Notes under the pieces: model-generated
What the model was told of the DNA's origin: nothing
The model's input: the letters and a program-made list of their open reading frames with translations, nothing else
The model's database searches: none
Shown here: one piece after another, positions 2,095 to 63,958 of the stretch
How positions within the stretch are numbered: the first letter of the stretch is position 1
Layout of the letters: each line of letters opens with the position of its first letter
Translations under genes and position numbers: made by a program
Origin: Verrucomicrobiota bacterium
Lineage (GTDB): Bacteria; Verrucomicrobiota; Verrucomicrobiia; Limisphaerales; PALSA-1396
Direction: 5' to 3'
NCBI GenBank assembly: GCA_016200005.1
Contig: JACQFP010000020.1
Location: 1 to 64,000, forward strand
Length of the DNA stretch: 64,000 bases

Positions 2095-2363
2095 ATTTGG
2101 TGTAATGATTCTTTGATTTCGCTCGGTTGATGTGCTCCATTATTTGTAATCTTGCTACGGGTGCATTGTCCTCGGTATCATCAGTCGTAAATTGAAAAAA
2201 TGATTTTGTTCAAATGAGTCTTCTTCTTCGTTTTGCCCCCGGCTTGGCTGGCCGTCGCGCTTGTCAGTACTGCTCGTGTGGTGTTGATTAATTGGCCGTA
2301 GGATGTACAAGCATGCGACACTTTTACTTTCCAAACACACATGAAAGAAACCTGCAGACACTT

Positions 2364-3653: not shown

Positions 3654-3672
3654 ATAATTTGATACACATCTA

Positions 3673-3698
3673 GGCCCGCTGAAAGGCGGGCCTTTCTT
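3673..3698 (+). terminator. Rho-independent terminator, second copy
   Basis: Stem GGCCCGCT/GGCGGGCC with a GAAA loop, followed by TTTCTTGTT, 20 bp after the stop at 3653. It differs from the copy at 2069 by one base, which gives a G-U pair. Confidence 0.85.
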
Positions 3699-3833
3699 GT
3701 TCAACGCAGCAATTCCTTGAGTCGTGAGGTTCCATGAGCCAAAGGTTTGTATACCGGACGACAAACGACCAACAGGTCGAGGCGGCAATTTTTCTTTTCA
3801 CAGTCACCGGATACCTTCATAAACATCGCACAC

Positions 3834-47250: not shown

Positions 47251-47310
47251 AACGATTGTGTTTCGAAGCACGCTTACAAAAGTAGGAAGCATTTTCAAGC
47301 TTTACGTCAG

Positions 47311-48962: not shown

Positions 48963-49340
48963 TGGAACCCAACTTCCGAATAAAGAGGATGCTCCCGCGT
49001 AAGTTCACCACGAATTCATTTGTGCGCGCAATCAAATGCAACATTTCCTTACCTGGTTCGGTCGATCGAACTGTGACACCCGTGTAAGAAAATCAACGGG
49101 CATCCTTTCATGGTTTCAGGATTTGATTACTGCGAGACGTGGTAAATAATACAAACAACGGCCGTTCAGAAAATCTAAAGTGGAAGCCGGCTGTGAAAGC
49201 GAAATTCATAACTCTCAAGTGGAAAAAAAAGTAAAAAAAACACTTGCATGGAAACTTGATCGTTTGTAGAAATAGGCATAACCCAATGGCTGTCATTGAA
49301 CAGACGTTCTGAAAATCTCAACTCAACCCCCATGAGAACC
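48963..49340. other. Non-coding region upstream of the 1058-residue secreted protein
   Basis: This 378-bp stretch has no plausible gene. It is AT-rich near 49200-49260 (A-rich runs around CTTGCATGGAAACTTGATCG). A possible -35-like TTGCAT occurs, but a matching -10 is weak, so no promoter is claimed. Confidence 0.35.
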
Positions 49341-52300
49341 ATGAAAACAAAAATCATAACACTCCTCGCATTGGTCATAACTTCGTCGCTCTCGCTGGCC
49401 CAAGTGGGCTCGCCGGAAGACGCCGGGCTGACCCCACGAACGTCGACAATCGACGTCAACACCAACTACAACAACAACAGTCTCGAGACTGGTGACATTA
49501 CCATCACGTCTAATACCAATGTGGTCTTGGCATATGAGGATGACGACGGCGGGATCTTGGATTTTGAAGCTAATTGGACGGTGTATAGCGCGCTGGGCGC
49601 TTTGCTCACGCCGGCGGTAACGATCACAAATATTGTGGGTAGCGCATGCTTTGCGACCGCGGAAGCGATCACGAACTGCACGACTCGGTCCTTCTTCCGT
49701 TCGAATGGCAGTCCGACTCCGCATTACACTGGAGATTACGGAGGGAAGGCCAAGGGCAACTGGTTTGGCCCGGGGTTTGGGTTTATGGCCGGGTGCGACG
49801 GTATCGCTTGTGAAATTCCAGAGTTGACCGCCATCAACGTAGATGGCGGCGGTGCTACGGCGAATGGTTCTCCGTTCGTGCAGTTGCTTAACAACGATGG
49901 TAGCCGGAACACATCTGCGGGAGGTCCGGACGTGGCAGGGATTGTGTCATTTTCCGACGCAGATACAGAACCGAACGGCGGTAACGGTGATATCCGGCCA
50001 ACTGATCTTGAATTCTTGTCCAACGGGAACATCGTGATCGCGGGCTTTAGCCGTCAGACAGAAGACCGTGCGCTAACCGGCCAGACCAACGGCAACGTTG
50101 TGGTTTATAAAGTCTTGAATTCGTCGGGCGGGGTGGTGAAGGCTTATTCAGTGGCGACTTCAGAACTGGCTGGCGATCAGACGGCGGGGCAGGACGCGTG
50201 GCACGGTGTGGCGGCGACAGCCAATGGTTTTGCGATCCGCTTTAGTCAGGCTGGGGACAAGATGCGCTTGTTTGACAATAATGGCAACCCGCTGGGGACG
50301 AACATCAATGTTGCAGCAGTGACGGGCCATCCAGAAGCGGCCACTGCTGGTCGCGGGGACGGCATGGGTTTCAAAGGCAATGGCAACGACGCTTATGTGT
50401 ATGCCGTTAACAGCGGCGCAGGAGGACCCTGGGTAACGGTGTTTAACGCCAATGGCACTGTGCGTTACTCGCGCGCGGTTACGGAAACGAACGACTCGGG
50501 CCTATACGCCAATTCCGACCGTCTGGATGCGGCCATTGACGAAGCCGGGAGGGTCATTGTAGCGTTTGACGCCTCAAATAATGACACTAATAACGGCAAC
50601 GTGTTCCGCTTGACTCAAGCGCGCGTGTTCGATCCTTGTGGTAATCCCATTGGGCCCGTGTTCTATGTGAGCGAGCGCGAGAATGCGACTAATGCCATCG
50701 CGGGCAACACTGCTGGACGGCCGCGCGTTGCTTGGCGAGGCAATACCATCGCCGTGATGTGGGGCAGTCTGAACAGCCCGGTCCTTGCAGATAATGTTCT
50801 TGCCCTCAGAATATTTGACGCCCCGCCCTGCAATCTAACTCCCTGCAGCGCCAGCGCGGCTGGCATGACGACCATTGTGCCGGATAAAGCCCTCTGGTAC
50901 AATTCCGCCAACTTCTACACAAATGGTCCGCTCAACCCGGCGGTACAAGTTCCGAACTTGGGGAACTGGGAACCTTTCTGCAGCGTGCTGGGCAATAGCA
51001 CGTTCCTGATTGAAGCCAACACTTTTGCCGACGATGGAGCTCAAGTGAATCAGCGCTACGCAGTCACTTTACAGCCCGTCGGTGGCGGCACGGCCAAGAT
51101 CGGTGAGGCGTTCTACACCGACGCGGGTGCGGCTTACCGGGGGCAAATTAACGGTTCCCGCCAAAACGGAAACCCTGGCCGCGTGGCCGGTGATAAGCGT
51201 CCGGGCGCCACGAGCTTTATTGCTGGCGGTGAATCTTCGCCTGATGGATTTGCGCCATTCCTGTCCGACACCCGTTGGGCTGCCGGGACCACGAGCGGCA
51301 TGTACAACGGAGGGAACCGTTACGGTGCCGTTCAAACCTATTCGTTGAATACTTCAACCTTGGTGCAAAGTCCACTCCACAAGGCCTTCGATGCTGTCAA
51401 TGGTCAGCAGACGGCTGCGTATGCGGGAAATGCACCGGAAGTCTCCCGTTTTGGCGGCGGACTGACGGTCTTGGACAATGGGAACAGCGTGGTAGTGATT
51501 CATGACAAGACGACCTACACCGATCCCGCTGCCAACGTCACTACTTTTGCGATCATAACACCGAGTGGTGGAATCGTGAAAAGCAACACACTGGTTGATC
51601 CGCGGGACATTTGGGACAATGTGAGCGCGTTCAAGGGTGGGTTTGCTGTGCGTTGCCATGACACGATTTACTTCTACAACAACGCCGGGAATCTCCAAGG
51701 CTCGACTCTGCAAAGCGCGTCGGGGGTCAGCTTTGACACAGGTCGTGGGGACGGGACGCGCATTGCCTCTCATATCTTCAGCCCGTACGTTTATCTGGCT
51801 GGTGAGATCAACGAAGGCACGAATGGTATTGTCCGGTTGGCGGTTTGGGATTCACGGACACGAGCGTTTGTCGCCCAGACAGCGATTACGACCTGTTACC
51901 AGCCAGGTGATGGAGGTGGAAATCATGGCCCGGACCGCGTGAATCTGGCAGTGGATGCCTGTGATCGCGTGTGTGTCACATACGCAGTCAATCCAGATAA
52001 TTCCGATGCGGCCAATTTCTCGTTTCGCCAAATCGCGGCGCGGGTGGTGCAGTTCAATCCGCGTAGGAGTAACTTCAGCTTCCTGAGCCCCGAGTTCTTC
52101 CCGTTTGTGAATCAGGACCGGGTTGGTGCTGGAGTACAAACGATTCAGACCATCGGTTCCAGCGTTGCCATGACGACGAAGGAAATCTGCATCGCCGCGA
52201 AAGGCTCGATCAACAGCACGAACAACCCGTCCGCGGGTGCTGATTCGGCGACTGAGACGACTGTCTATACGGTCATCAGCCATCCGGCGCCCGAGGCTGA

Positions 52301-52517
52301 TCCGACACTGCCGATCCTGGGCATTGCCCAGTCAGGAAGTAATGTCATCGTTTCGTGGGCGACGAACACGTGCGATTACGTTGTCCAGAGCGCGACGAGC
52401 GTCACGGGTCCCTACGCCGACCTGAGTCCGCAGCCACCGATCGTCGTTGTTGGCGGCTCGAAGACGGTGACCATACCGATCGGAAGCGGCAACTTGTTCG
52501 TCCGGTTGGTGCGATAA
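49341..52517 (+). CDS. Large secreted protein with Verrucomicrobia-type C-terminal domain
   Basis: The 1058-residue protein has a signal peptide (MKTKIITLLALVITSSLSLA). The body is Asn/Thr/Gly-rich beta sequence with repeated blade-like segments (NGNIVIAGFSRQTEDRALTG, YAVTLQPVGGGTAKIGEAFY, GGLTVLDNGNSVVVIHDKTT), so a propeller-like fold is suspected. The last ~60 residues (CDYVVQSATSVTGPYADL ... NLFVRLVR) are the shared C-terminal domain. The start at 49341 is set by the signal peptide; an in-frame ATG 9 bp upstream is an alternative. A terminator follows at 52560. The function is unknown. Confidence 0.75.
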   Translation: MKTKIITLLALVITSSLSLAQVGSPEDAGLTPRTSTIDVNTNYNNNSLETGDITITSNTNVVLAYEDDDGGILDFEANWTVYSALGALLTPAVTITNIVGSACFATAEAITNCTTRSFFRSNGSPTPHYTGDYGGKAKGNWFGPGFGFMAGCDGIACEIPELTAINVDGGGATANGSPFVQLLNNDGSRNTSAGGPDVAGIVSFSDADTEPNGGNGDIRPTDLEFLSNGNIVIAGFSRQTEDRALTGQTNGNVVVYKVLNSSGGVVKAYSVATSELAGDQTAGQDAWHGVAATANGFAIRFSQAGDKMRLFDNNGNPLGTNINVAAVTGHPEAATAGRGDGMGFKGNGNDAYVYAVNSGAGGPWVTVFNANGTVRYSRAVTETNDSGLYANSDRLDAAIDEAGRVIVAFDASNNDTNNGNVFRLTQARVFDPCGNPIGPVFYVSERENATNAIAGNTAGRPRVAWRGNTIAVMWGSLNSPVLADNVLALRIFDAPPCNLTPCSASAAGMTTIVPDKALWYNSANFYTNGPLNPAVQVPNLGNWEPFCSVLGNSTFLIEANTFADDGAQVNQRYAVTLQPVGGGTAKIGEAFYTDAGAAYRGQINGSRQNGNPGRVAGDKRPGATSFIAGGESSPDGFAPFLSDTRWAAGTTSGMYNGGNRYGAVQTYSLNTSTLVQSPLHKAFDAVNGQQTAAYAGNAPEVSRFGGGLTVLDNGNSVVVIHDKTTYTDPAANVTTFAIITPSGGIVKSNTLVDPRDIWDNVSAFKGGFAVRCHDTIYFYNNAGNLQGSTLQSASGVSFDTGRGDGTRIASHIFSPYVYLAGEINEGTNGIVRLAVWDSRTRAFVAQTAITTCYQPGDGGGNHGPDRVNLAVDACDRVCVTYAVNPDNSDAANFSFRQIAARVVQFNPRRSNFSFLSPEFFPFVNQDRVGAGVQTIQTIGSSVAMTTKEICIAAKGSINSTNNPSAGADSATETTVYTVISHPAPEADPTLPILGIAQSGSNVIVSWATNTCDYVVQSATSVTGPYADLSPQPPIVVVGGSKTVTIPIGSGNLFVRLVR

Positions 52518-52559
52518 TAGAACTCCAAACACGGCCGACCGGATTTAGCGTCGGTTCAA

Positions 52560-52586
52560 GGCCCGCCGAAAGGCGGGCCTTTTTTG
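52560..52586 (+). terminator. Rho-independent terminator, third copy
   Basis: GGCCCGCC-GAAA-GGCGGGCC followed by seven T, 42 bp after the stop at 52517. It is the strongest of the three copies. Confidence 0.92.
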
Positions 52587-52934
52587 TCACGCAATGCCCC
52601 GCAAGACGTACGGAAATGTGAATGTCACGCTGGCCCAGCTTCATGTATAAATGTCGATCTGGCCGAGCAACCACCCTGGCTCTGACAAGGGAGCGTTTCG
52701 AACCTCCGGGTTGGGAGCATGGTTTCTCCGCCTGACCAAAATCTGTCCGAGAATCAAAGCCGGGCGCAGACCGAGTACGTAACTGACTTGTCTGGCGTGT
52801 GGACTGACAGTTGGTTGGCTTGGAGTCGATTCGCGTCTCATCGACAGGCTTGCCACTTTCTCTCGCGTCTCGCTACCCTTGTCCTGGTGACGATGAAATT
52901 CTTTATCTTGGAAACGTAACATCCGGAATACCGC
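52587..52934. other. Non-coding region before gltX
   Basis: No gene or RNA structure was recognised here. A plus-strand reading frame runs through part of it but carries no conserved phrase. gltX begins at 52935 after CATCCGGAATACCGC. Confidence 0.4.
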
Positions 52935-54275
52935 ATGAGCATTCGCGTACGATTTGCACCCAGCCCGACGGGTTTTCTCCACATCGGCGGCGCGCGCACC
53001 GCGCTGTTCAACTGGCTTTACGCCCGGCACACCGGCGGCACGTTTGTCCTGCGCATCGAAGACACCGACGCCGCGCGCAACACGCAGGAAGCTGTGGACG
53101 TGATCCTCAACGGCCTGCGCTGGCTTGGCCTGCATTGGGACGAAGGTCCGCTCACGAGCGATGCCACCGGCGCCTGCAAGGGTGACCGCGGCCCGTATTT
53201 CCAAAGTCAGCGCAGTGAGAACTACCAACGCCGCGTCGAAGCGTTGCTCTCGCACGGGCTCGCCTACGAACACGAGGGCGCGATCAAATTCAAGATGCAA
53301 CGCGAGCCGATTGTCATCCCCGACCTCGTCGTCGGCGACGTGCTCCGTAAACTCACCGACCGCGAGGAAGCCGACCCCGACTTCGTCATCGTTCGCTCGG
53401 ACGGCCAGCCGGTGTTCCACTTCGTCAACGTCGTGGACGATCTGGAGATGGGCATCACGCACGTCATTCGCGGCGAGGATCACCTGAGCAACACCGCCAA
53501 GCACATCGCGCTTTTCCGCGCGTTTGGCGTCGAGCCGCCGCGCTACGCGCACATCCCGCTCATCCTGAACGCCGACGGCAGCAAGATGAGCAAGCGCGAC
53601 CGCGGCGCGTCCCTCACGACTTATCTCGACGAAGGTTTTCTACCCGAAGCCGTGAACAACTATCTGTGCCTCCTCGGCTGGTCACCCAAGGAGAACACGG
53701 AAAAAATTTCGCTCGCCGAAGTCGTCGAGCGCTTCGACCTGCCGCAAATTCTCCGCCACAACGCCAGGTTCGACTTCGACAAACTCCTCTGGCTGCAAGG
53801 CGAATACTGTCGCGAACTGCCTAACGACCGCTTCTACGAACTCGCCGTCCACGCGCTCGCCAAGGCCGGCATTGACACCAACAAGCACGACGTGAACTAC
53901 GTCAAAGCCGCGCTCGACACCTGCAAAGGCAAAATCAAAACCTTCAGCGAACTGCCGGCGTATGGCGGCTTTTATTTCCGCGACGAAATCATCTACGACC
54001 TCGAAGCCGCGAAGAAGAGTTTCTTGCCCGAAAACAAACCGCGCCTGGAAAAACTGCGCGACGCCTTCGGTAAACTCGCTACCTTCGACGCCGCGTCATT
54101 GGAAGCCGCGCTCAAAGCCGTTGCAGGCGAACTGGGAGTAAAAGCTGGCGCACTGGTGCATCCGACCCGGATGGCCTGCACCGGAAGCGCCGCCGGGCCG
54201 AGTCTCTACCATCTATTGGAAGTGTTGGGTAAGGAGCGGGTCTTGAACCGGATTGATCGCATGCTCAGGATTTGA
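52935..54275 (+). CDS. gltX: Glutamyl-tRNA synthetase
   Basis: The 446-residue class I synthetase has the HIGH-type motif ([20 protein letters not shown]) near the N-terminus and the KMSKR motif ([20 protein letters not shown]) near residue 220. The EDTD segment ([18 protein letters not shown]) belongs to the Rossmann domain. The C-terminal helical anticodon domain is shorter than usual but complete to LNRIDRML. It charges tRNA-Glu. The last 11 bases overlap the convergent purE gene. Confidence 0.95.
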
Positions 54276-54774
54276 TGTTCAACGTGTGGTTCTTTGCTCG
54301 CGATTCCTCGGCCAGCTTTTCCTTGAACTTCACCATCGCCTGCTGGAGTTTCGCATCCGAGGAGGCGAGAATCTGCACCGCGAGCAAACCGGCATTCCTC
54401 CCCGAGCCAATTCCCACCGTGGCGACCGGCACTCCCGGCGGCATCTGCACGATGGACAGCAGCGAGTCCAGTCCCTTCAGCGACTTGCTATCGATCGGTA
54501 CGCCGATGACGGGCAGCGTCGTGAACGCCGCCGTGACGCCCGGCAGATGCGCCGCGCCGCCCGCTCCCGCAATGATGACGCGCAGACCACGCTTGATCGC
54601 GCTGCTGGCGTAAGCTTCCAAATCTTTCGGCGTGCGATGTGCGGAAATGACTTTGGATTCGCAGGGAACACCGAACTCCGCGCAGGTATCGGCCGCGGCT
54701 TTCATTGTCGGCCAGTCCGAGTCACTGCCCATCAATATTCCCACTACTGGATTCCTATTATTCGTTGTGTTCAT
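54265..54774 (-). CDS. purE: N5-carboxyaminoimidazole ribonucleotide mutase
   Basis: The 169-residue cytosolic class I PurE catalyses N5-CAIR to CAIR in purine synthesis. Motifs: [36 protein letters not shown] (catalytic His region), [20 protein letters not shown] and [20 protein letters not shown]. The last bases overlap the gltX 3' end. No purK is adjacent in this window, although class I PurE usually needs it. Confidence 0.95.
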
Positions 54775-54917
54775 GTTTCCCCGACAGATTGAGCTTTAGC
54801 GTATTGGGATTGGCAAGACGGAAAGCAATATGCCAGCGACAATAAGCTTCCGAAGGGGTTCTGAAATCTGCTGCACTTAAGATCTCCAGACCTTAGACTC
54901 TCCGAAAATAACGATAG

Positions 54918-56180
54918 ATGAACGGCTGGAAACAAATCGCTGATTTTCTGGCGCTGCGACGGAACACCTCGTTGCTGCTGGTTGCGCTGGTGCTGGCGCT
55001 GACGGGCGAGCGATTGTGGCTCAACTTCGCCCCGAAATATCTCGAAACGCTGGGCGCAAGCATCCTGATTATCGGTTTGTTCGACGCCCTGCAAACATTG
55101 CTCGGCGCGCTTTACGCCTATCCCGGCGGCTGGTTGACGGATCGCTGGGGTCAGCGCCGCTCCTTGCTCTTCTTCAACGCGCTTTCGTTGGCCGGCTATG
55201 TGTTGGTTATCTTCTGGCAACACTGGCTGGCGCTCGTTATCGGCGCGTTTCTGTTTCTGGCCTGGAGCGCGCTGTCGTTGCCGACGACCTTCTCTGTGGT
55301 CGCCACGTCACTGGAATCAAGCCGGCACACGATGGGTATTGGCGTGCAATCGATGGTGCGCCGCGTGCCGATGATGCTCGGTCCGCTGATCGGCGGCTGG
55401 CTGGTGAATCATTACGGTTGGGGCAGGGGAGTGCAGCTCGCGTTGCTCATCTGCATCGCACTGAGCTCGCTCACCGCGGTCTTCCAATGGTTCATGCTTG
55501 AGACAAAACCCACTCCTGACCCCTCCCAGGAGGGGCATAATTCTGGGGGCACGCGTTCTTCCTTGCTCCCCTCCACCGAAGGGGTTGGGGGTGGGTCGCA
55601 ACAGATTGGGTTCTTCACCGTCGTCAACTCCTTCACGCCCGCGCTGCGTGAATTGCTGGTCAGCGACATCCTCATCCGCTATTGTGAACGCATTCCCTTC
55701 GCGTGGGTGATCTTGTGGGCGATGAATCACGGCGGGTTGAACGCTGAACAATTCGGCTGGCTGGTGGCCATCGAAATGGTGACCGCGATGCTTTGCTACA
55801 TTCCAGTCGCTCATCTGGCAGACAAATACGGTCGTCGCCCTTTCGTGCTGGTGACGTTCTGCTTCTTTACACTGTTTCCGATCACGTTGCTCTGGGCGGA
55901 TAACTTCACGTGGCTGGCATTGGCTTTTATGGTGCGGGGGCTGAAGGAATTCGGCGAGCCGGCGCGCAAGGCATTGATCATCGCCGAGGCCAGACCGGAA
56001 CTCCGGGCGCGTTCGTACGGGGCGTATTATTTGATTCGCGATTGCATGGTGACGAGCGGCTCGTTCCTCGGAGCGTGGTTGTGGAGTTTCAGTCCGCACG
56101 CGAATTTTATTGGCGCAGCGATTTGCGGCGGGCTGGGCACGCTCTGGTTTTGGTGGTTTATTTATCGGCGGCGCCCTTAA
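54918..56180 (+). CDS. MFS transporter
   Basis: A 420-residue membrane protein with about twelve segments. The TM2-3 loop has YPGGWLTDRWGQRRSLLFFN (the MFS GxxxDRxGRR motif), repeated in weaker form as VAHLADKYGRRPFVLVTFCF after TM8. The substrate is unknown; neighbours suggest none. The central cytoplasmic loop (residues ~195-228, TPDPSQEGHNSGGTRSSLLP) is encoded by a palindromic repeat at 55508-55596, kept in frame. Confidence 0.85.
   Translation: MNGWKQIADFLALRRNTSLLLVALVLALTGERLWLNFAPKYLETLGASILIIGLFDALQTLLGALYAYPGGWLTDRWGQRRSLLFFNALSLAGYVLVIFWQHWLALVIGAFLFLAWSALSLPTTFSVVATSLESSRHTMGIGVQSMVRRVPMMLGPLIGGWLVNHYGWGRGVQLALLICIALSSLTAVFQWFMLETKPTPDPSQEGHNSGGTRSSLLPSTEGVGGGSQQIGFFTVVNSFTPALRELLVSDILIRYCERIPFAWVILWAMNHGGLNAEQFGWLVAIEMVTAMLCYIPVAHLADKYGRRPFVLVTFCFFTLFPITLLWADNFTWLALAFMVRGLKEFGEPARKALIIAEARPELRARSYGAYYLIRDCMVTSGSFLGAWLWSFSPHANFIGAAICGGLGTLWFWWFIYRRRP
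55508..55596. repeat. Palindromic repeat inserted in the MFS gene, family B
   Basis: Imperfect palindrome with ACCCAC at the left end and GTGGGT at the right end; ACCCACTCCTGACCCCTCCC faces GGGGTTGGGGGTGGGT. It is kept in frame and encodes the MFS central linker. Confidence 0.7.
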
Positions 56181-56185
56181 ACCGC

Positions 56186-56277
56186 GTTGGAGTTCAAGCT
56201 TCAGCTTGTCGGCGGTTAGGACTGGAGGGCGATAAACCAGATCATTCCACCGACAAGCTAAAGCTTGAACTCCAACT
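56186..56277. repeat. Long inverted repeat between MFS and pgsA genes
   Basis: Two 30-bp arms (GTTGGAGTTCAAGCTTCAGC-type, 56186-56215; 56248-56277) match at 28 of 30 positions around a 32-bp loop. No T-run follows. It could end the MFS transcript or act as a dispersed palindrome. Confidence 0.85.
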
Positions 56278-56312
56278 CTGGCCGCGCATGATGGCGCGTG
56301 CAGTCCATGACC

Positions 56313-56894
56313 ATGGCCAACAAAATCACGATTCTGCGGATTTTGCTGGTACCATTCTTTATCGCGCAGGTCCTCTACTATGTCGGCAGCGGTAACGAAC
56401 TGTATCGGCTGCTCGCCATCGTTTCATTCGCCATCGCCGCCATCAGTGACGGCGTGGATGGCTACCTGGCGCGCCACTACAACCAGCGCAGCGAGTTGGG
56501 CGCGATTCTCGATCCGCTGGCGGATAAACTTCTGCTCGTCTCCGGCATCGTGCTCCTGAGCCTGAACAACGCGCCGTATCTGGAGCAGATTCCATTGTGG
56601 TTGACCATGACCATCATCGGGCGGGACGTAATCATCTTGATCGGCATGGTGGTGATTCATTATACGGTCGGGAAGGTGATTGTTCATCCACGAATGATCG
56701 GCAAGGTGGCGACCGTGGTGCAAATGACCGTCGTGCTCTGGACATTGTTGCGCTGGGACGCGCATTGGCTTCTGGTTTGGAATGTTGGCGCCGCGGTCTG
56801 CACCGGCGCCTCCGGCCTGCTTTACATCTTTGACGGCGTTCGGCAGTTGAGCGCCAGCCCCAAGGCCGAGGCGAGTTCGAAGTTGAAGACCTAA
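56313..56894 (+). CDS. pgsA: CDP-alcohol phosphatidyltransferase (PgsA-like)
   Basis: The 193-residue membrane enzyme has the family signature AAISDGVDGYLARHYNQRSE, then LGAILDPLADKLLL, which supplies the metal and CDP-lipid binding aspartates (D-G-x2-A-R-x8-G-x3-D-x3-D). This class makes phosphatidylglycerophosphate from CDP-diacylglycerol and glycerol-3-phosphate; a cardiolipin-type member cannot be excluded. The start at 56313 (MANKITILRILLVPFF) gives the usual cytosolic leader. It is 53 bp before the peroxiredoxin. Confidence 0.85.
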   Translation: MANKITILRILLVPFFIAQVLYYVGSGNELYRLLAIVSFAIAAISDGVDGYLARHYNQRSELGAILDPLADKLLLVSGIVLLSLNNAPYLEQIPLWLTMTIIGRDVIILIGMVVIHYTVGKVIVHPRMIGKVATVVQMTVVLWTLLRWDAHWLLVWNVGAAVCTGASGLLYIFDGVRQLSASPKAEASSKLKT

Positions 56895-56947
56895 TGCTGC
56901 AAAAGGATGTATTTGATCCAAACCACCGACCGAATCATACGAGTAAC

Positions 56948-57421
56948 ATGGCAAAAGAAATCGAACTCAAATTAAAAGCAGGCGATGAAGCGCCGGAATT
57001 CTCTGCGTTGACCAGCGGCGGCGGCCAAATTTCGCTGGCCGACCTCAAAGGCAAAAACGTCATCCTCTACTTTTATCCCCGGGACGACACGCCCGGTTGC
57101 ACCAAGGAAGCGTGTGCCTTTCGTGATCACTTTGCCGAGTTCAAAAGGAAAGGCGCCGTTGTGCTCGGCGTCAGCATCGACCCGGTGAAGTCGCACGACA
57201 AATTTGTGGAGAAATTCAAGCTGCCGTTCACGCTGCTGGCGGATGAGGACAGGAAGATCGTTTCGGCGTATGGCGTCTGGGGCCAGAAAAGTTTCATGGG
57301 CCGGAAATACATGGGCACGCATCGTGTGACCTTTCTGATCGGCGCGGACGGACGCATCAAAAGAATCTGGCCGAAGGTCAAACCGGCCGAGCACGCAGCG
57401 GAAGTGTTGGCGGCACTGTAA
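56948..57421 (+). CDS. bcp: Thiol peroxidase of the Bcp/PrxQ type
   Basis: A 157-residue thioredoxin-fold peroxidase: LKAGDEAPEFSALTSGGGQI, VILYFYPRDDTPGCTKEACA (peroxidatic Cys in TPGCT, resolving Cys five residues later), and LLADEDRKIVSAYGVWGQKS. It reduces hydroperoxides using thioredoxin. The start at 56948 is at the beginning of the conserved domain. It lies 9 bp before the Tat-exported gene, so they may be an operon. Confidence 0.92.
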   Translation: MAKEIELKLKAGDEAPEFSALTSGGGQISLADLKGKNVILYFYPRDDTPGCTKEACAFRDHFAEFKRKGAVVLGVSIDPVKSHDKFVEKFKLPFTLLADEDRKIVSAYGVWGQKSFMGRKYMGTHRVTFLIGADGRIKRIWPKVKPAEHAAEVLAAL

Positions 57422-57430
57422 GGGGGCCGG

Positions 57431-59419
57431 ATGGAAACCAAAGAAAACTTGAATCTGGAGAACGAGAATCAACCGGATGTTGCACGGGAATCGAGAGGAA
57501 CGATTAAACGCCGGACGTTTCTCGGCTTGAGCCTGTCCGGTTTCGCCGGACTTTCGCTGCCAGCGCTCTCGCAACCGCGCGCCCAGGCTGCGGCTGAAGG
57601 ACCGCCGACGAACGCCATCCAGAAAAGCCCGGGCGTCAAGTCTGCGTATTGGGAGCGCACGGATCGGTTTGAAGAGAAGCTGAAGCTGCTCGAGGCGGCG
57701 TGGCAGAAGAAAGATTTCCGGCTGGCGCGCGCGCTGGCACATTCGCTGCGGAGCACGGCGATTCAGGCGCAAGCCGAGGAGGAGAATCCCGGAACGCCAC
57801 TGATGGCGGCTTCGCGATATGAAATGGTGGAGTCGCTACCGTCACCGTGGAACAACTGGGCGCATGGGTGGAAATACTGCAAGCTCTTGACGCTCGCTGA
57901 ACCCATCGGCCAGCAGCGGTCAGCCGAGCCGGTGGAGGTGTTGCTGGGTTTTCCGGCGGAACAGGTGACGTTCCTCGCGCGGGAGTTGCGCGTCGCGCGA
58001 GTGGCCGACGGCGCGTTGAAGGAAATTCCGTGTCAGGTGTATGGCGAGGTGCGGCGGGGCAATGAACGTTTCTGCAAACTGCTGTTCATGGCTGATTGTC
58101 CGGCGAATCAAGCGCAGACGTGGCTGGTGTTTTATGGAAACCCGGACGCGGAATTTCCAGGATATCCATCGGACCTGGTGACAACGGGCGAAGGCTTCGG
58201 GCTGGACATCGAAAACGAATTTTTCAAGGCATCGCTCTCGCGGCAGATGGGGCAACTCGAACGGCTGACGCTCAAGCGCGAGCACGGGCTGGAATTGTTT
58301 TCCGGCGGCGAGGGCCACGGTGAGCCGCCGGGCATCGATTGGGCGCATGATTACGTGGATTCGGGGAGTTTTCAGAAATTGCGCATTACGTTGTGGGACA
58401 CGTGTTCGGATTATGAAGTCGTGCGCGGGCCGTTGTGCACGATGGTGCGGCGCTGGGGATTTCCGTATTCGCCGGTGCATCCGTTGTTTTCGCCGAGCCG
58501 GCTCAACATCGACGTCGAATACCGCTTCTACGCCGGTCTGCCGTGGTTTCACAAAATTGGCCGCATGGAAGCGGTCAAAAGTTTTGAGGCGGAAGGTTTG
58601 CGGGATGACGAGTGGGTCTTCTCCGGGAACTCATTCACGGACATCGTGTGGATGGGGCCGGACGGAAAACTGCGCATCGGCGAGGTGGACAAGGAGCATC
58701 AGGAAAACCTCTGGGGCGTCGGCTTCTTCAACAAAGAAAGCAAGGACTCGTTCATCGCGCTGTTTCTGGAGCACAAGGCCGAGGGGTTGCCGGAGCTGAA
58801 ACATTCCGGCGCGCCGACGTTGTCCTATCGCTGGCATGGGCAACTTTGGAGCCGGTATCCGCTGCCGGGCAGACACGTGCCCGCTGGTGCCGTGTTGCAT
58901 GAGAAGAACGCCTACGTTGCCTTGCCGTTCACGACGGCGGATGGGCCGCGCATGATTGAAGAATTGCGTCGCCGCCTGATGAATCCGTTGGTCGCGTCGG
59001 CGGGTGAAGTGCCGAAGGGTGTCACCGCGAAGGCATCTCCGGGACGATTGGCGCGCCCGGGAGAAGCCGGCGACAGTCCGATTCCCAAGAAGGTTTTGTG
59101 GGACGCGTTGCGCGATTGCAAAGACGCGCAGCTTTACACGGCGGACATCAACGTGGTGGACCTCGGTCTGGTGTACGATGTGCGCGTGCGGGGCGACGTG
59201 GTGACGGTGATCATGACGATGCCGCATCGCGGGCGGCCGCGTGTCGGTTACTTCGCGCACGGCTCGATCTCGGTGCATCCCACGTATTCACGGCCGGTGG
59301 AGGAGCGGTTGCTGCAAGTGCCCGGCGTGCGCCAGGTGGTGGTGGAGCAGACTTGGGAGCCGGTTTGGAGTTCCAATCAACTGACGGACGAGGGGCGCCG
59401 GAAGCTGGGGTTGTCGTGA
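57431..59419 (+). CDS. Tat-exported protein with C-terminal DUF59 (MIP18-type) domain
   Basis: The 662-residue protein has a twin-Arg signal (TIKRRTFLGLSLSGFAGLSL at residues ~26-45). A helical segment (residues ~70-120) precedes a large beta domain with EVLLGFPAEQVTFLARELRV, VFYGNPDAEFPGYPSDLVTT and RITLWDTCSDYEVVRGPLCT, loosely like polysaccharide-lyase beta sheets. The last ~110 residues are a DUF59/MIP18 fold: VLWDALRDCKDAQLYTADIN, VVDLGLVYDVRVRGDVVTVI, RLLQVPGVRQVVVEQTWEPV. DUF59 is normally cytosolic in Fe-S assembly, so its export here is unusual. The function is unknown. Confidence 0.7.
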   Translation: METKENLNLENENQPDVARESRGTIKRRTFLGLSLSGFAGLSLPALSQPRAQAAAEGPPTNAIQKSPGVKSAYWERTDRFEEKLKLLEAAWQKKDFRLARALAHSLRSTAIQAQAEEENPGTPLMAASRYEMVESLPSPWNNWAHGWKYCKLLTLAEPIGQQRSAEPVEVLLGFPAEQVTFLARELRVARVADGALKEIPCQVYGEVRRGNERFCKLLFMADCPANQAQTWLVFYGNPDAEFPGYPSDLVTTGEGFGLDIENEFFKASLSRQMGQLERLTLKREHGLELFSGGEGHGEPPGIDWAHDYVDSGSFQKLRITLWDTCSDYEVVRGPLCTMVRRWGFPYSPVHPLFSPSRLNIDVEYRFYAGLPWFHKIGRMEAVKSFEAEGLRDDEWVFSGNSFTDIVWMGPDGKLRIGEVDKEHQENLWGVGFFNKESKDSFIALFLEHKAEGLPELKHSGAPTLSYRWHGQLWSRYPLPGRHVPAGAVLHEKNAYVALPFTTADGPRMIEELRRRLMNPLVASAGEVPKGVTAKASPGRLARPGEAGDSPIPKKVLWDALRDCKDAQLYTADINVVDLGLVYDVRVRGDVVTVIMTMPHRGRPRVGYFAHGSISVHPTYSRPVEERLLQVPGVRQVVVEQTWEPVWSSNQLTDEGRRKLGLS

Positions 59420-59529
59420 TCGTGGAGCGCTGCGACCACTGTCGCATCCACCTCCTCCCCGCCGTCCGATGGCGTAGAGAAAGAGGGAGGGGATTCTCTG
59501 AGATGATTTCGCGCACTGAACCCTAATCC
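59420..59529. other. Non-coding region with GC-rich hairpin remnant
   Basis: Bases 59450-59492 hold a weak CCTCCTCCCC/GAGGGAGGGG pairing like family B palindromes. No gene was seen. The 70-bp repeat at 59530 and another 170 bp without a gene follow before the propeller gene. Confidence 0.4.
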
Positions 59530-59599
59530 GTAGCAGCCGACGTAAGTCGGCTCTGACTTTCACCGAATTCAGATGGAGCGCACTCACGTCCGCTGCTAC
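59530..59599. repeat. 70-bp palindromic repeat, family A, intergenic copy
   Basis: GTAGCAGCCGACGTAAGT pairs with ACTCACGTCCGCTGCTAC at 16 of 18 positions. It has the same length and internal CGGCTCTGACT block as the copy at 39268. Confidence 0.85.
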
Positions 59600-59768
59600 G
59601 AGGTTCATGGGAGGGATAAAAACCTCGCAACCTCACAATCCAGTTCGAAAGAGCATGACGGTTCATCATTGCAGTACGAAAAACATTTGTCCGCCGGCGA
59701 GGTTGGAAAAATTAGTTGCGCTTTCCACGCAGTCGGTTTCCTATTGGATCAACAAGAAGAAATTCATT

Positions 59769-61118
59769 ATGAAAAATCAAACCATCCTCCGTTATGTTTT
59801 CACCGGGTTGTCGTCCACTTTGCTGACGACGGCGCTGATCTCCTCACCCGCCACAACGCGCGCCGCGGGCGGCGACGTGTTGTGGACGAATCAATTCAAT
59901 CTCTCCGGCGGCCGGGACCAGGCGCTGGCCGTGGCCGCAAAAGGCCGGGGCGTCTTTGTCGCCGGCCGGGTCCGAAACGCCACCCTCAACGACGACTGGC
60001 GGATCAACGCCTATGACGCCGTGAGTGGCTCGTTGCTCTGGACCAATCAGCTTGACGTCGCCGGAGGCCGCGACGAAGCCCTCTCGGTGGCCGTGGCAGG
60101 GAAGGTCGTGGCAGCCGCCGGACGGGTCCGCAATGGATCGTTAAACGATGACTGGCTCGTGCGCGCTTACGATGCCGGCATCGGCAGCCTCCTGTGGCAG
60201 GACCTGTACGACGCCACCAATGGCAACGACCGCGCGAATGCCATCGTCGCGCTGGGCAAAAGCGTTGTCGCCGTCGGACGCGTCCGCAACAGTGCCGGCA
60301 ACGACGATTGGTTTGTGCGGGCTTACGATGCCACCACCGGCGCGCTCCGCTGGCAGGATCAGCTTGACCTCGTCGGCGACAATGACGAAGCCGTCGCCGT
60401 CACCATTCAAGGCACGAAAGTGTTCGCCGTGGGTCACGTCACCAATGGCGCCGGAGACAGCGATTGGTACGTGCGCGCCTACAACCTCGTCAACGGCGCC
60501 GTCCTCTGGACCAACCAATTCGACAAGGTGGCCGGCGACGATGCCGCGCTGGCGGTGGTCGCCCGGGGCAAATCGGTTTTCGTCGCGGGTTATGTTGTCA
60601 ACGGTGCTGGCGATGAAGATTGGGAGGTGCGCGCGTACGATGCGGGCACCGGCAACCTGCTTTGGGAAGACCAACATGATCTGGCGGCGGATGACGACCG
60701 CGCCGTGAGCCTGGCCGTGCGCGGGCACAGCGTGGTGGTCGCCGGCAGCGTGCGCAACCTTGCGGGCGATTCCGACTTCGCCGTGCGCACCTACGACACC
60801 GGGTCGGGCAACCTGCTCTGGGAGGATCGTTACAACCCCGCGGGCGGCAACGATGCGGCCCTGGCCACAACCGTTTCCGGCAGCACCGCGCTGATCGTTG
60901 GCCGGGTTACCAATGCCCAGGGCGACACCGACTGGTTTGTGCGCGCCTACAGCGTCAAGGCCGGCGCGCAGCTCTGGAGCGATCAAGTCAACCCGAATGG
61001 CGGGGACGACGAAGCGTTCGGGGTGGCGACCGCCGGCAACCGCGCCATCGTGGTTGGCGATGTGGAGAACGCCGCTGGCAACGCGGACTGGTCGGTGCGA
61101 ACGTCCGCGGTGAAGTAA
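59769..61118 (+). CDS. Secreted eight-repeat beta-propeller-like protein
   Basis: The 449-residue protein has a signal peptide (MKNQTILRYVFTGLSSTLLT, cleavage near TRA-AGG). Eight repeats of about 51 residues follow with the frame LLW..Q.D..GG.DEA..VA..G..V.VAGRV.N..GD.DW.VRAYD; blade-like LLW and AYD pairs recur regularly. The count and PQQ-like pattern suggest a closed eight-bladed propeller, but no Trp-docking motif is conclusive. Extracellular or periplasmic scaffold activity is inferred. The start is chosen at 59769 for the signal peptide. Confidence 0.75.
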   Translation: MKNQTILRYVFTGLSSTLLTTALISSPATTRAAGGDVLWTNQFNLSGGRDQALAVAAKGRGVFVAGRVRNATLNDDWRINAYDAVSGSLLWTNQLDVAGGRDEALSVAVAGKVVAAAGRVRNGSLNDDWLVRAYDAGIGSLLWQDLYDATNGNDRANAIVALGKSVVAVGRVRNSAGNDDWFVRAYDATTGALRWQDQLDLVGDNDEAVAVTIQGTKVFAVGHVTNGAGDSDWYVRAYNLVNGAVLWTNQFDKVAGDDAALAVVARGKSVFVAGYVVNGAGDEDWEVRAYDAGTGNLLWEDQHDLAADDDRAVSLAVRGHSVVVAGSVRNLAGDSDFAVRTYDTGSGNLLWEDRYNPAGGNDAALATTVSGSTALIVGRVTNAQGDTDWFVRAYSVKAGAQLWSDQVNPNGGDDEAFGVATAGNRAIVVGDVENAAGNADWSVRTSAVK

Positions 61119-61179
61119 TCTCGCCGGGAGAGATTCCACGGATCAAAGTTCGCCAATCGAGCTACTAATCCCACCCCCT

Positions 61180-61197
61180 GCTCCTCCCAGGAGGAGC
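61180..61197 (+). terminator. Short GC hairpin after the propeller gene
   Basis: GCTCCTCC-CAG-GAGGAGC lies 62 bp after the stop at 61118. No T-run follows, so termination is uncertain; it may be a palindromic repeat. Confidence 0.4.
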
Positions 61198-61204
61198 GGG
61201 CCGC

Positions 61205-61376
61205 ATGGTGAATTGTCATTCGGCTATTGGCCATTCGCTACTGGCTATCAGCTATTGGCTATTTGCAATCGGCTCATTGGTTATTCCGGCGGTGTTTGGC
61301 CTTTGGCTATTGGCTATCGGCTCATTGACCATTCGCGCCGCGTTTCGCGATTGGCAATTGGCTCATGGGCGATCGA
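61205..61376. repeat. GGCTATTGGC word-repeat array, 3' side of the four-helix gene
   Basis: The array is built from GGCTATTGG, GGCTATCGGC, CATTGG and TTTGCAATCGGCT words, including TTGGCTATTTGCAATCGGCT at 61255. It shares GGCTATTTGCAATCGGCT with the array on the other side of the gene. Confidence 0.8.
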
Positions 61377-61913
61377 CTAATCTTCCACCGGTTCACCACG
61401 CGCGGCGCGCGATTCCGGTGAATTGAAAAGCGGATGGTCTGGTCTCAGGTTCCGCAAAAAATTCAGACGAAAATCTTTTGCCTTCTGCGCCGTCTCGCGT
61501 CGCTCCTTCACCTCGCCGGTCAAATGCCGTTTACCTTGCACCGGCGATCTGTCAATGGACGCCGTCCACGCCGTCAGTTGTCGCGCGCACGATTCCGCGA
61601 GGGAGCGGATTTCGTGCAAGCGGCGCACGATGGGTTTGAGTTTCGGCCGGTCCTTGACCACCGCCATCATGGAGCGCACTTCCCCGGCGCTGCCGCGTGC
61701 GATGGCGAGAAACATGTTCAGTTCGTTGGTCGTCACGCGCTCAAAACCTTCCGCGATGTTGTTGGAGACGGAGAGCGCGGCGCGGTCGAGTTGGTTGCGG
61801 AAGCCAGGCGTGAGCGGCACGTCCGGTTCCTCCAGCAGATCCAGCACGCGATTGTAGAGTCGCGCGGCCTCCTGCCACACGGGCAGGTCTTCAAACTTCA
61901 GATACTTGGGCAT
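61377..61913 (-). CDS. Four-helix-bundle protein (S23/IVP type)
   Basis: A 178-residue protein. Its first ~115 residues are the conserved four-helix fold: LKFEDLPVWQEAARLYNRVL, PGFRNQLDRAALSVSNNIAE, GFERVTTNELNMFLAIARGS, AGEVRSMMAVVKDRPKLKPI. The N-I-A-E-G and ARGSAGE signatures are typical of the 23S intervening-sequence family. The C-terminal ~60 residues are basic and not conserved. Function in the family is uncertain (binding near structured RNA or retroelement partners is known for relatives such as Avd). It sits between two TTGGCTATCGGC word arrays. The start at 61913 is set by the fold. Confidence 0.85.
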   Translation of the reverse strand: MPKYLKFEDLPVWQEAARLYNRVLDLLEEPDVPLTPGFRNQLDRAALSVSNNIAEGFERVTTNELNMFLAIARGSAGEVRSMMAVVKDRPKLKPIVRRLHEIRSLAESCARQLTAWTASIDRSPVQGKRHLTGEVKERRETAQKAKDFRLNFLRNLRPDHPLFNSPESRAARGEPVED

Positions 61914-61949
61914 GATGGGATTCCTTTCAGTGGTTGTTGATGCGTGAGG

Positions 61950-62085
61950 TTTCAATAGCCGATAACCGATAGTCAATAGCCAAGATGAAAGTTCGCGCGC
62001 CGTGCCGTTTCGGCGATCGGCTATTTGCAATCGGCTATCATTGATCGGCTATCGGTCATTGTCTATTGGCTATGGCCGAAGGCAG
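61950..62085. repeat. Word-repeat inverted array, 5' side of the four-helix gene
   Basis: CAATAGCCGATAACCGATAG at 61953 is inverted relative to GGCTATCGGTCATTGTCTAT near 62055. The centre is GC-rich (CGCGCGCCGTGCCG). GGCTATTTGCAATCGGCTAT at 62019 matches the 3' array. Confidence 0.8.
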
Positions 62086-62400
62086 GCGTCAACGGGTGGT
62101 AAAACCGTGATCCGCCGCCGCCTCGCCGCGAAAGAGCGCAAAGAACACAGAACCGTTTCAACGCGGATGAACACCGACGGACGCGGATTCTGCTCTCAAC
62201 TCTCAACCTTCAGCCAGTCGCCAACCGGGTCGGAGAATCAACCGCGAAACACGCGCACTACGCGAACAAAACTCCCCGCTTTGCAACCGCCGCTTGCTTC
62301 GCTACTCTCACCACGTCAGTCAAAAACAAAACGACCAGAAAACTTTTTTACAAAATCATTTCGCGCAGTCTCGGCTGCTGTTCGCTACGAAACGTGGAAA
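62086..62400. other. Non-coding region with repeat-like fragments
   Basis: No gene was recognised. Short phrases such as AACGCGGATGAACACCGACG and CGCGAAAGAGCGCAAAGAAC look like further dispersed repeats, but their borders cannot be defined here. Confidence 0.35.
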
Positions 62401-62401
62401 T

Positions 62402-62466
62402 TTCGATCGAAGGACAGCGCTCGACGCGCGCCCCTCGGGGCGCGCTGAAAGCGTTCCTTCGAAGGC
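62402..62466. repeat. GC-rich imperfect palindrome
   Basis: A perfect core GCGCGCCCC-TC-GGGGCGCGC (62426-62445) lies inside outer arms GAAGGACAGCGCT and AGCGTTCCTTC. It is upstream of the truncated helicase fragment. Confidence 0.6.
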
Positions 62467-62579
62467 ATCCACGTGCCTGTAGCGGGGCGCAAGTAAGTGT
62501 CGCCCCCTTCTGTTTCAGGCACGGATTCCTTCCAGGAGCAGTCCCTCAACACGGCTGATTCGCGCGCGAGCGAACAGCC

Positions 62580-62907
62580 ATGCCGCGAATCTTTGACAAT
62601 ATCGAAGCCGCTCTGCTGCCTGCTTTGGAGCAGACGCTTGAGCTTTCCAATCGCGCCGACTTCTGCGTCGGCTATTTCAATCTTCGCGGCTGGAGGGAAC
62701 TGGACTCGCACGTTGAAGCATGGGCTGGCGGAAAAGAGAATTGCTGCCGCCTGCTGGTCGGGATGCAGCGGCTTCCGCAGGAGGAATTGCGCGCGGCGTT
62801 CAGCCTGACTCAAGGCCAGGATCAACTCGACAATCAGACTGCCCTCCGCCTCAAGAAGAAGCTCGCCGAGGAATTTCGCAATCAGTTGACCTTCGGTGTG
62901 CCGACGA
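62580..62907 (+). pseudogene. N-terminal fragment of a PLD-domain helicase-like defence protein
   Basis: The frame begins [20 protein letters not shown] then [20 protein letters not shown] and [20 protein letters not shown], and ends with [20 protein letters not shown]. This is the conserved start of large phospholipase-D-fold SNF2-type helicases found in restriction-like or DISARM-like defence loci. After ~109 codons the frame loses similarity and ends at 62975; the helicase core is gone. It is therefore a broken gene. Confidence 0.65.
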
Positions 62908-62944
62908 ACTCGGATGGAACAGGCCCGCGCCCGGCGAGTTCGCC

Positions 62945-63652
62945 TTGCCGACGGAAATCTGGCGCGAAGTCGTAGCCCGGCGGACGCGATATTTTGAACT
63001 GCGCGCAAGAATGTGTGGTGAAACGCTCGCCCTCACCCCGGCCCTCTCCCCCGGGGAGAGGGGGAATCGTTCTCCGTCTCACGACAAATCGAGCGCGTCA
63101 CCTTTGCCAGGCGCGGCGGATGTTTCTCCCTCTCCTGGGGGAGAGGGCCGGGGTGAGGGCGGAACATTCCCTCCCATCCGCGACATCAACAACCTCATCA
63201 CGCTCAACCTCGACATCCGCCAGTTCGCGCAGGACGTGATTGAGAATTGCGAAGGGCCGGAAATGCTTCGCGCCTTCTGGCAGGCCATCACCACCATCAC
63301 CGTGCTCGACCTGACGTGCGGTTCGGGTGCGTTCCTGTTCGCGGCGCTCAACATCCTTGAACCGCTTTACGAAGCCTGCCTCGACCGCATGGAAGCGTTC
63401 GTCGAAGACCTTGAGCGCTCCGGCGAAAAGCACCGGCCGGAAAAATTATCCGACTTCCGAAAAATCCTGGAGCGCGTGGCCGCGCATCCGAACCGCCGCT
63501 ACTTCATTTTCAAAAGCATCATCCTGAACAACCTCTTCGGCGTGGACATCATGGAAGAGGCGGTGGAAATCTGCAAACTGCGCCTGTTCCTCAAGCTCGC
63601 CGCACAAGTCGAACCGGACGCCGCCAGGGACAACCTCGGCATCGAACCGCTG
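62945..63652 (+). pseudogene. Internal fragment of Eco57I-type adenine methyltransferase/restriction enzyme
   Basis: The frame reads [20 protein letters not shown], then after the inserted palindrome IRDINNLITLNLDIRQFAQD, VIENCEGPEMLRAFWQAITT and VLDLTCGSGAFLFAALNILE. The last is the SAM-binding motif I (D-x-TCGSGAFL) of N6-adenine methyltransferases. LNNLFGVDIMEEAVEICKLR adds motif II. No start or NPPY motif IV remains, and the similarity stops at IEPL (63652), where helicase sequence joins in the same frame. Confidence 0.7.
63026..63159. mobile_element. MITE-like element with 23-bp perfect inverted ends, family B
   Basis: The ends CGCCCTCACCCCGGCCCTCT-CCC (63026-63048, 23 bp) and the exact reverse complement (63137-63159) enclose a 134-bp element. 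Its translation (ALTPALSPGERGNRS, SPSPGGEGRGEGG) interrupts conserved methyltransferase sequence. Confidence 0.85.
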
Positions 63653-63958
63653 ACCGCCCATCATGTGTTCGTCTTGGGGCTTTGCAAGGAGGCCATCCCT
63701 GGGATTCGAACCGCAGAATATCCAGGCACAGATGCCGATTACTACGAGGAACAGCGCAGGCTGTTTTACGTCACGATTACCCGCTCAAGAGAGACGCTGG
63801 TTCTTTCGAGGCCGAAAAAAATCAAACCGGGAGACGCTCAAAAACTGAATCTGCGAGTTGGAGCGCCGGAATTTCATTATTCAAAACTCCAAATGTGCCC
63901 GTTCCTGCGAGACATCATGGATACGCTTCCGGCAGCAGTGGATGGTGAAAACTTGTAG
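63653..63958 (+). pseudogene. UvrD/PcrA-type helicase C-terminal fragment joined in frame
   Basis: Directly after the methyltransferase fragment the frame reads TAHHVFVLGLCKEAIPGIRT, then EEQRRLFYVTITRSRETLVL, which matches motifs V-VI of superfamily 1 helicases (EEERRLFYVAxTRAxE). The remaining ~60 residues run to a stop at 63956-63958. Upstream helicase motifs are missing. Together with the preceding fragments this looks like a recombination product of a lost defence island. Confidence 0.65.

Follow-up and report, generated by a model that had tools for sequence, protein, structure and literature searches.

The window, by which we mean the whole 64,000-nucleotide stretch of Verrucomicrobiota DNA analysed here, contains an intact open reading frame with an ATG start, whose product consists of a signal region, a helical region, a β-rich body that is predicted to resemble carbohydrate-active enzymes, and a C-terminal tail related to DUF59 (MIP18). 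The positions of these features, and of the two genes directly upstream, are given in Table 1.

Table 1. Positions in the window of the features of the gene under study and of its upstream neighbours
Feature	Position	Strand	Basis or remark
CDP-alcohol phosphatidyltransferase (pgsA-like)	56298-56894	+	directly upstream of the window gene
PrxQ/BCP-type peroxiredoxin	56894-57421	+	directly upstream of the window gene
Whole gene	57431..59419	+	twin-Arg signal, helical region, carbohydrate-enzyme-like body and DUF59 tail; 662 aa
Signal peptide region, residues 1-53	57431..57589	+	sequence
Twin-Arg motif R27-R28-T-F-L	57509-57523	+	also in the own-genome copy and the nearest relative
N-terminal helical hairpin, residues 80-117	57668..57781	+	predicted structure
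First β domain, residues 149-235	57875..58135	+	predicted structure; placed with the N-terminal β domain of PL26
Large β domain, galactose-mutarotase-like, residues 246-524	58166..59002	+	predicted structure
DUF59 tail without DPE/T/C signature, residues 548-661	59072..59413	+	profiles, alignment, predicted fold
Codon of R602, position of the DUF59 hyper-reactive cysteine	59234..59236	+	R in 73/73 family rows, C in 23/23 controls

The N-terminus of the protein (...TIKRRTFLGLSLSGFAGLSLPALSQPRAQAAAE) contains a twin-arginine motif of the form R27-R28-x-F-L, followed by a hydrophobic segment and then an AxA-like end, and the same genome encodes TatC (PF00902, scoring 183.3 bits where the cut-off is 25.1). 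The motif, the hydrophobic stretch and a Tat system in the genome, which are features of a Tat substrate, are all present, and the protein is putatively exported through this Tat-type signal, in agreement with the original prediction. A second copy of the gene, 82% identical in sequence to the window protein, is found in the same genome. The dN/dS ratio between the two copies is about 0.13 in the body and 0.19 in the tail, which suggests that both parts are under purifying selection. A chance reading frame or a pseudogene is ruled out by the existence of two such copies with ratios well below 1 in both parts.

Elsewhere in the window, the MFS protein encoded at 54918-56180 has a central loop containing PDPSQEGHNSGG...LLPSTEGVGGGS, which gives the impression of a translated dispersed repeat. 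The reading frame at 62720-63958 joins a PglX-like methyltransferase stretch, a stretch reading TPALSPGERG...PSPGGEGRGEGG and a C-terminal fragment of UvrD, and resembles a chimera assembled from fragments more than an intact gene. The window also encodes a secreted-looking protein of 1073 residues that has no Pfam match at E < 1 (49296-52517), a very Gly-rich reading frame of 583 residues (45547-47298, minus strand), and a four-helix protein of the 23S rRNA-intervening-sequence type (TIGR02436; 61377-62030, minus strand).

Full-length relatives were found in eight of 96 other genomes (G001, G029, G037, G048, G062, G076, G080 and G082). A profile of the body alone found matches in 32 of the 320 genomes examined from the order, the own genome included, with only distant matches in G125 and G129; in a sample of the phylum it matched three of 387 genomes, of which one was the own genome and two gave distant matches. 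On these counts the family is patchy in its distribution. The genomes of named species were scanned with two body motifs, which gave 163 stretches and 140 relatives, and the best 80 of the 140, at 78 loci, were kept. Members of the family are spread over Verrucomicrobiota, Planctomycetota, Acidobacteriota and Bacteroidota (Arenibacter algicola, Daejeonella), together with one record titled Latescibacterota; several other records, which are metagenome bins, bear titles that are doubtful as names (Akkermansia, Klebsiella). Members in records not marked as metagenome-assembled include those of Arenibacter algicola E3M18, Daejeonella sp. H1SJ63 and JGW-45. A search of plasmids gave one weak match, annotated as a metal-sulfur cluster assembly factor, and a search of viral contigs for the family gave none.

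An alignment of 73 sequences was made from the 100 family genes that 82 stretches yielded. It comprises the window gene and a selection of the other 99, of which four were left out because their coverage was incomplete and 23 because they were near-copies (at least 92% identity). A quick tree, which has several long branches and is rooted for drawing only, places the Bacteroidota rows on one side of a branch and the Planctomycetota rows likewise, and requires five changes for the Verrucomicrobiota rows and three for the Acidobacteriota rows. Incomplete copies were also encountered. At about 3069-3308 of one stretch (L044/L164, G054:C74), only the last ~45 residues of the family survive (hmm 543-592) beside a gene that, as judged from sequence, is sialidase-like, and this fragment is the remnant of a lost family copy. 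At 2261-4235 of another (L158, G191), a family copy is split over two reading frames, probably by a frameshift or an assembly error.

The structure of residues 70-662 was predicted from the 73 sequences (model numbering is window residue minus 69), giving a pLDDT of 93.6 and a pTM of 0.93; this model supersedes an earlier one from 10 sequences, which had a pLDDT of 63.8. The tail of the model takes the DUF59 fold and not a different one, and Foldseek matches it to DUF59 structures (3cq2, TM-score 0.79-0.80 by target length). At the level of sequence, four NCBIfam models (SUF_assoc, SufT and two PaaD) match residues 548-661 with E-values from 3.6e-6 to 3.4e-11, all far under their curated cut-offs, and Pfam FeS_assembly_P scores 22.5 or 22.9 bits against the window protein, just short of its cut-off of 23.5. 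Pfam DUF59 is matched at E ≤ 1 by all 73 family members. When the profile of the 73 rows was compared with the PDB, it matched the DUF59 structures 1uwd (E 7.8e-12) and 2cu6 (E 8.2e-11) as well as 3lno and 5ird, the four matches spanning 7.8e-12 to 6.9e-6. Profile and fold agree, and the C-terminal ~114 residues are, on this combined evidence, a true DUF59 domain whose resemblance to the family is well beyond chance, much as had been proposed for the last ~110 residues.

The tail thus shares its fold with SufT, PaaD and MIP18/CIA2 (Pfam FeS_assembly_P), with clear sequence homology over residues 548-661, and like them it keeps the VVDLGLVYD core, the PGV turn and the W-x-P-x-W end. Unlike them, it is the tail of a protein of ~600 residues. 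Within the family it is about as conserved as the large β domain (mean pairwise identity of 0.616, compared to 0.628). Fe-S assembly factors of the SufT-MIP18 type are cytosolic and are often encoded next to suf genes; no suf genes were found among the ten reading frames scanned in 49296-63955 of the window.

One published DUF59 signature is DPE-X26-31-T-X2/3-C (PMC9045647), and the available part of a survey of 761 SufT homologues reports the Cys to be kept in each of them (PMC4982691). As controls, DUF59 domains were taken from 23 further proteins, encoded in the own genome and in related ones, and aligned with the family tails; these are all the tail-only loci fetched, except for L016, which is a remnant of the window family. 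At the signature positions, every one of the 23 controls has D, P, E, T, G and C. In the 73 family rows the corresponding residues are D565 (73/73), Q567 (72/73), P598 (73/73), G601 (73/73) and R602 (73/73), so that the DPE, T and hyper-reactive C of SufT, PaaD and MIP18 have become D-x-Q, P and R. Across the 73 rows taken together, a single Cys occurs at positions 594-612. A Cys is common at position 563 (59 of 73 rows, with V in 12), which lies outside the signature.

The suggestion that the tail might carry a metal site was accompanied by a proposal to check it for conserved Cys, His and Asp. The original prediction was right about the resemblance to DUF59, but overlooked that the signature residues are gone. 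Because the signature is lost in all 73 rows, the idea that the tail holds a metal or Fe-S site is unsupported and we reject a metal-bearing tail. SufT from Mtb, which does keep the Cys, is reported as not binding Fe or Fe-S, and the Cys of the SufT DUF59 domain is reported to serve protein contacts (PMC9045647, in the part available). Since the family tail has lost the cysteine and other defining residues, it has probably been repurposed, and is probably used for something other than Fe-S assembly.

Tail and body go together throughout the relatives that were kept. These are the best 80 of 140, and selection by rank may have favoured full-length sequences. At 76 of the 78 loci the match reaches at least residue 657, and the remaining two (L151 and L153) run off contig ends. 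Every kept relative that is not truncated by the end of its contig therefore has the DUF59 tail, and the search for the same two-domain architecture bears out the original description. We base this statement on the body-motif scan and not on the 73-row alignment, because the alignment required coverage of most of the tail. Four very distant relatives of the body (two in L156, and one each in L160 and L159) have no tail and no DUF59 match, which suggests that the tail was added to an older body. The two in L156 stand in tandem (1-2984); they keep R-x-x-E-x-V motifs and have no Pfam match above cut-off.

Other fusions of this domain have been described: the survey of SufT homologues distinguishes modular forms S1-S9, with fusions to a U-type scaffold, Rieske ferredoxin, CysE, PaaJ/acetyltransferase, a P-loop NTPase, DUF1858, PqqD and an unassigned N-terminal motif, and in the available part of that paper none of the forms has a body like that of the window family (PMC4982691). 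In the DUF59 literature, no title among the matches listed points to such an architecture of body and tail. We regard the protein as a new combination of known folds, with a derived DUF59 domain.

We then turn to the signal. On a rule of our own with four manual changes, the 73 rows comprise 24 with a Tat-type signal, 17 with a Sec-like signal, 29 with none and three unassigned; the rule alone gave 23, 15, 33 and 2, respectively, and the labels altered by eye were those of L116 (to Tat), L111 and L115 (to Sec) and L087 (to unassigned). On the tree, four changes of state are needed for signal type. In several signal-less rows, among them L095, L098, L132, L145, L148, L150 and L155, the open frame extends no further than about ten codons 5′ of the conserved start, so that no signal could be encoded. 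Homologues without a signal peptide, which the original prediction had itself named as evidence against it, therefore exist in some number, and with the Sec-like rows they lead us to reject Tat export as a defining feature or point of design of the family. The invariant residues are the same in the signal-less and the exported forms, which argues against the assembly of a cofactor dictating Tat export. A tail whose metal or Fe-S site folds before the protein leaves the cytosol, with Tat export serving the cofactor, would fit its homology to DUF59 and the Tat-type motif of the window protein and the other rows that have one, but it is hard to reconcile with the missing signature, the near absence of Cys from positions 594-612, the location of C563, the behaviour reported for Mtb SufT, and the 29 signal-less and 17 Sec-type rows, and we consider it very improbable.

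No Pfam model matches residues 70-540, in the body of the window protein, at E < 1, so that the term enzyme depends on the predicted fold and on conservation. The first β domain, which we take to be a RIFT barrel, precedes the large domain of galactose-mutarotase-like fold. Foldseek places the best GH38 and PL26 chains first, with E-values of 4.9e-10 to ~1e-8. With VIA-align, the highest rows are PL26 (5xqg_A, Z 18.9, 4.2 Å, 338 residues aligned), GH174 (8jd7_A, Z 18.4, 3.5 Å, 256 aligned; 9k1g_A, Z 18.3, 3.7 Å, 261 aligned) and GH38 (7ufs_A, Z 18.0, 3.6 Å, 234 aligned), followed by the aldose-epimerase-like 3ty1_A (Z 17.0, 3.7 Å, 238 aligned) and the aldose-1-epimerase-like 3mwx_A (Z 15.8). 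Rows within 1 Z of each other were counted as tied, and as the top rows are tied no single structural family stands out. The description of the body as lyase-like is thus upheld by the fold, as seen for PL26, and not by the sequence. The fold class also holds non-catalytic domains.

One close comparison is with the PL26 exo-rhamnogalacturonan lyase (5xqg), which has the same plan of two β domains. Identity to the window body is only 10%, the 5xqg chain is longer at 896 residues, and the window protein differs in having the N-terminal hairpin and the DUF59 tail. The PL26-type Pfam model PcRGLX_1st (PF19501) has no match in the window gene and one match in the own genome, in a separate gene with an open frame of 979 residues (L166, G000:C48:11816-11962). 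The GH174 endo-1,3-fucanases (8jd7 and 9k1g) have a similar body fold at 9-10% identity; for one GH174 enzyme, Fun174A, the residues D119, E120 and E218 are listed in the available part of the paper (PMC11943901). The GH38 α-mannosidases (2wyi and 7ufs) give the best Foldseek E-value, and the similarity is to their C-terminal half: in 2wyi_B only residues 397-819 are aligned. The catalytic domain of GH38 lies N-terminal to this half, and a GH38 domain is absent from the window protein by Pfam at E < 1. We therefore reject an assignment to PL26, GH174 or GH38, as the likeness is in fold only.

Within the large β domain, H296, E298, D303, D307, K316, R318, R340, R357, R391, D392, D393, E394, H448 and R475 are invariant in all 73 rows, forming a dense set of acidic, basic and His residues that is kept in exported and signal-less rows alike. 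In an alignment of 12 rows that includes the very distant tail-less sequences, W304, D307, W322, Y364, R391, E394 and R475 are common to three of the tail-less relatives, and the fourth, L159, retains few of them. Because D307 and E394 are also found in those three relatives, we suggest them as the first candidates for catalytic carboxylates.

Gene neighbourhoods were compared over 89 stretches (the window included, with a few contigs fetched twice), in 82 of which the family gene was kept; the neighbours came from a simple longest-ORF caller, which found no family reading frame in the other seven stretches and listed some antisense frames. The neighbours of the window gene (gltX and the genes for the MFS, pgsA-like and peroxiredoxin proteins) are uninformative on sugars, and the last three recur among the 89 stretches only in a contig of the same genus that was fetched twice (L036 and L078). 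The own-genome copy has a quinoprotein gene beside it: clusters of these (21 and 33) occur in six of the 89 stretches, with one member matching a PQQ-dehydrogenase under cut-off and two matching GSDH and cytochrome c over cut-off, and both the own-genome copy and L094 adjoin a GSDH-type glucose/sorbosone dehydrogenase with cytochrome c. In the Pirellula stretch L117, the neighbours are a galactonate dehydratase (over cut-off), a DapA-family protein and the same type of transporter as is described below. Neighbours differ widely outside the Bacteroidota, where scans of 75 and 72 of them gave no shared sugar pathway, and the commonest neighbour family was DUF1501 (6/75 and 6/72).

The Bacteroidota loci are more uniform. 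The family gene is often found in tandem arrays of two to five copies, as in L105, L112, L114, L129 and L141 (Daejeonella and kin), and is single in L102 and L113. Many of the Bacteroidota loci have SusC/SusD-like genes upstream and, downstream, genes for a transporter of the MFS type, for an SDR and for a protein of the creatininase family. SusD-like genes occur in 10 and SusC-like genes in eight of the 89 stretches, all in Bacteroidota and named by reading the sequence, with no model. One MFS cluster is present in 15 stretches; the two members scanned have as best NCBIfam match the D-galactonate-transporter subfamily, under cut-off. The SDR cluster is present in 12 stretches, 11 of them from Bacteroidota, with a different SDR in L037. 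The creatininase-family cluster is present in 10, and its NCBIfam matches (MftE, creatininase and the 3-dehydro-scyllo-inosose hydrolase IolN) are all under cut-off. The Arenibacter locus encodes in addition a protein resembling PQQ-dehydrogenases and an amidohydrolase whose relatives include L-fuconolactonase; both matches are likewise under the NCBIfam cut-off. In the tree, separate paralogue clades of the tandem copies recur across genomes, which suggests that the copies have divided substrate roles.

The arrays and the SusC/SusD-like genes would suit a non-catalytic sugar-binding protein, that is a surface or periplasmic lectin, whose tail docks a partner protein, a role that would be in keeping with the protein contacts reported for the SufT cysteine in the available part of that work (PMC9045647). 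A surface lectin that so commonly lacks a signal (29/73) would however be odd, and the carboxylates, His and Arg that stay invariant in exported and signal-less rows also speak against it; we regard this as unlikely. It is distinctly unlikely, in our view, that the body is a mutarotase- or epimerase-type enzyme acting on small sugars, as opposed to a polysaccharide lyase or hydrolase. In its favour, aldose-1-epimerase-like chains rank among the best matches in structure, copies that lack a signal would suit substrates of low molecular weight, and the neighbouring SDR, creatininase-family and transporter genes would suit the catabolism of small molecules; on the other hand, two β domains are matched in PL26 and GH38 (338 and 324 residues aligned), compared to a lone mutarotase domain (231-238).

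The reading that we favour, with somewhat better than even confidence, is that the proteins form a new CAZyme-like family that probably acts on an acidic or oxidised sugar, in which a Cys-less DUF59 domain has been reused as a structural or substrate-site element. To our knowledge, no activity is known for any family member, and the enzymatic activity, the class of substrate and the role of the tail are suggested by the predicted fold, the conservation and the neighbours. On this proposal, the β-rich body would bind, and probably cleave or rearrange, an acidic or oxidised saccharide, with β-elimination, hydrolysis or epimerisation as candidate reactions. This would take place in the periplasm for the window protein, and in the cytosol in species where the signal is missing. 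The DUF59-fold tail would pack as a constant structural part of the enzyme and may border the substrate site, and would not be a carrier of Fe-S or metal. A more specific version, that a DUF59 domain from Fe-S assembly supplies R602 to the acidic or oxidised sugar site while the family moved between cytosol, Sec and Tat export, is tentative and on balance doubtful.

DUF59 is treated as a marker of Fe-S assembly, and automatic annotation would tend to label the members of this family as Fe-S cluster assembly proteins. The presence of a DUF59 domain without its signature, within proteins that resemble sugar enzymes in at least four phyla, points to reuse of the fold and is a warning against such an annotation. 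A DUF59 family that lacks the cysteine also provides a natural test of the purpose of that cysteine. The body is a candidate for a new CAZyme family, and the members from records not marked as metagenome-assembled could be worked with.
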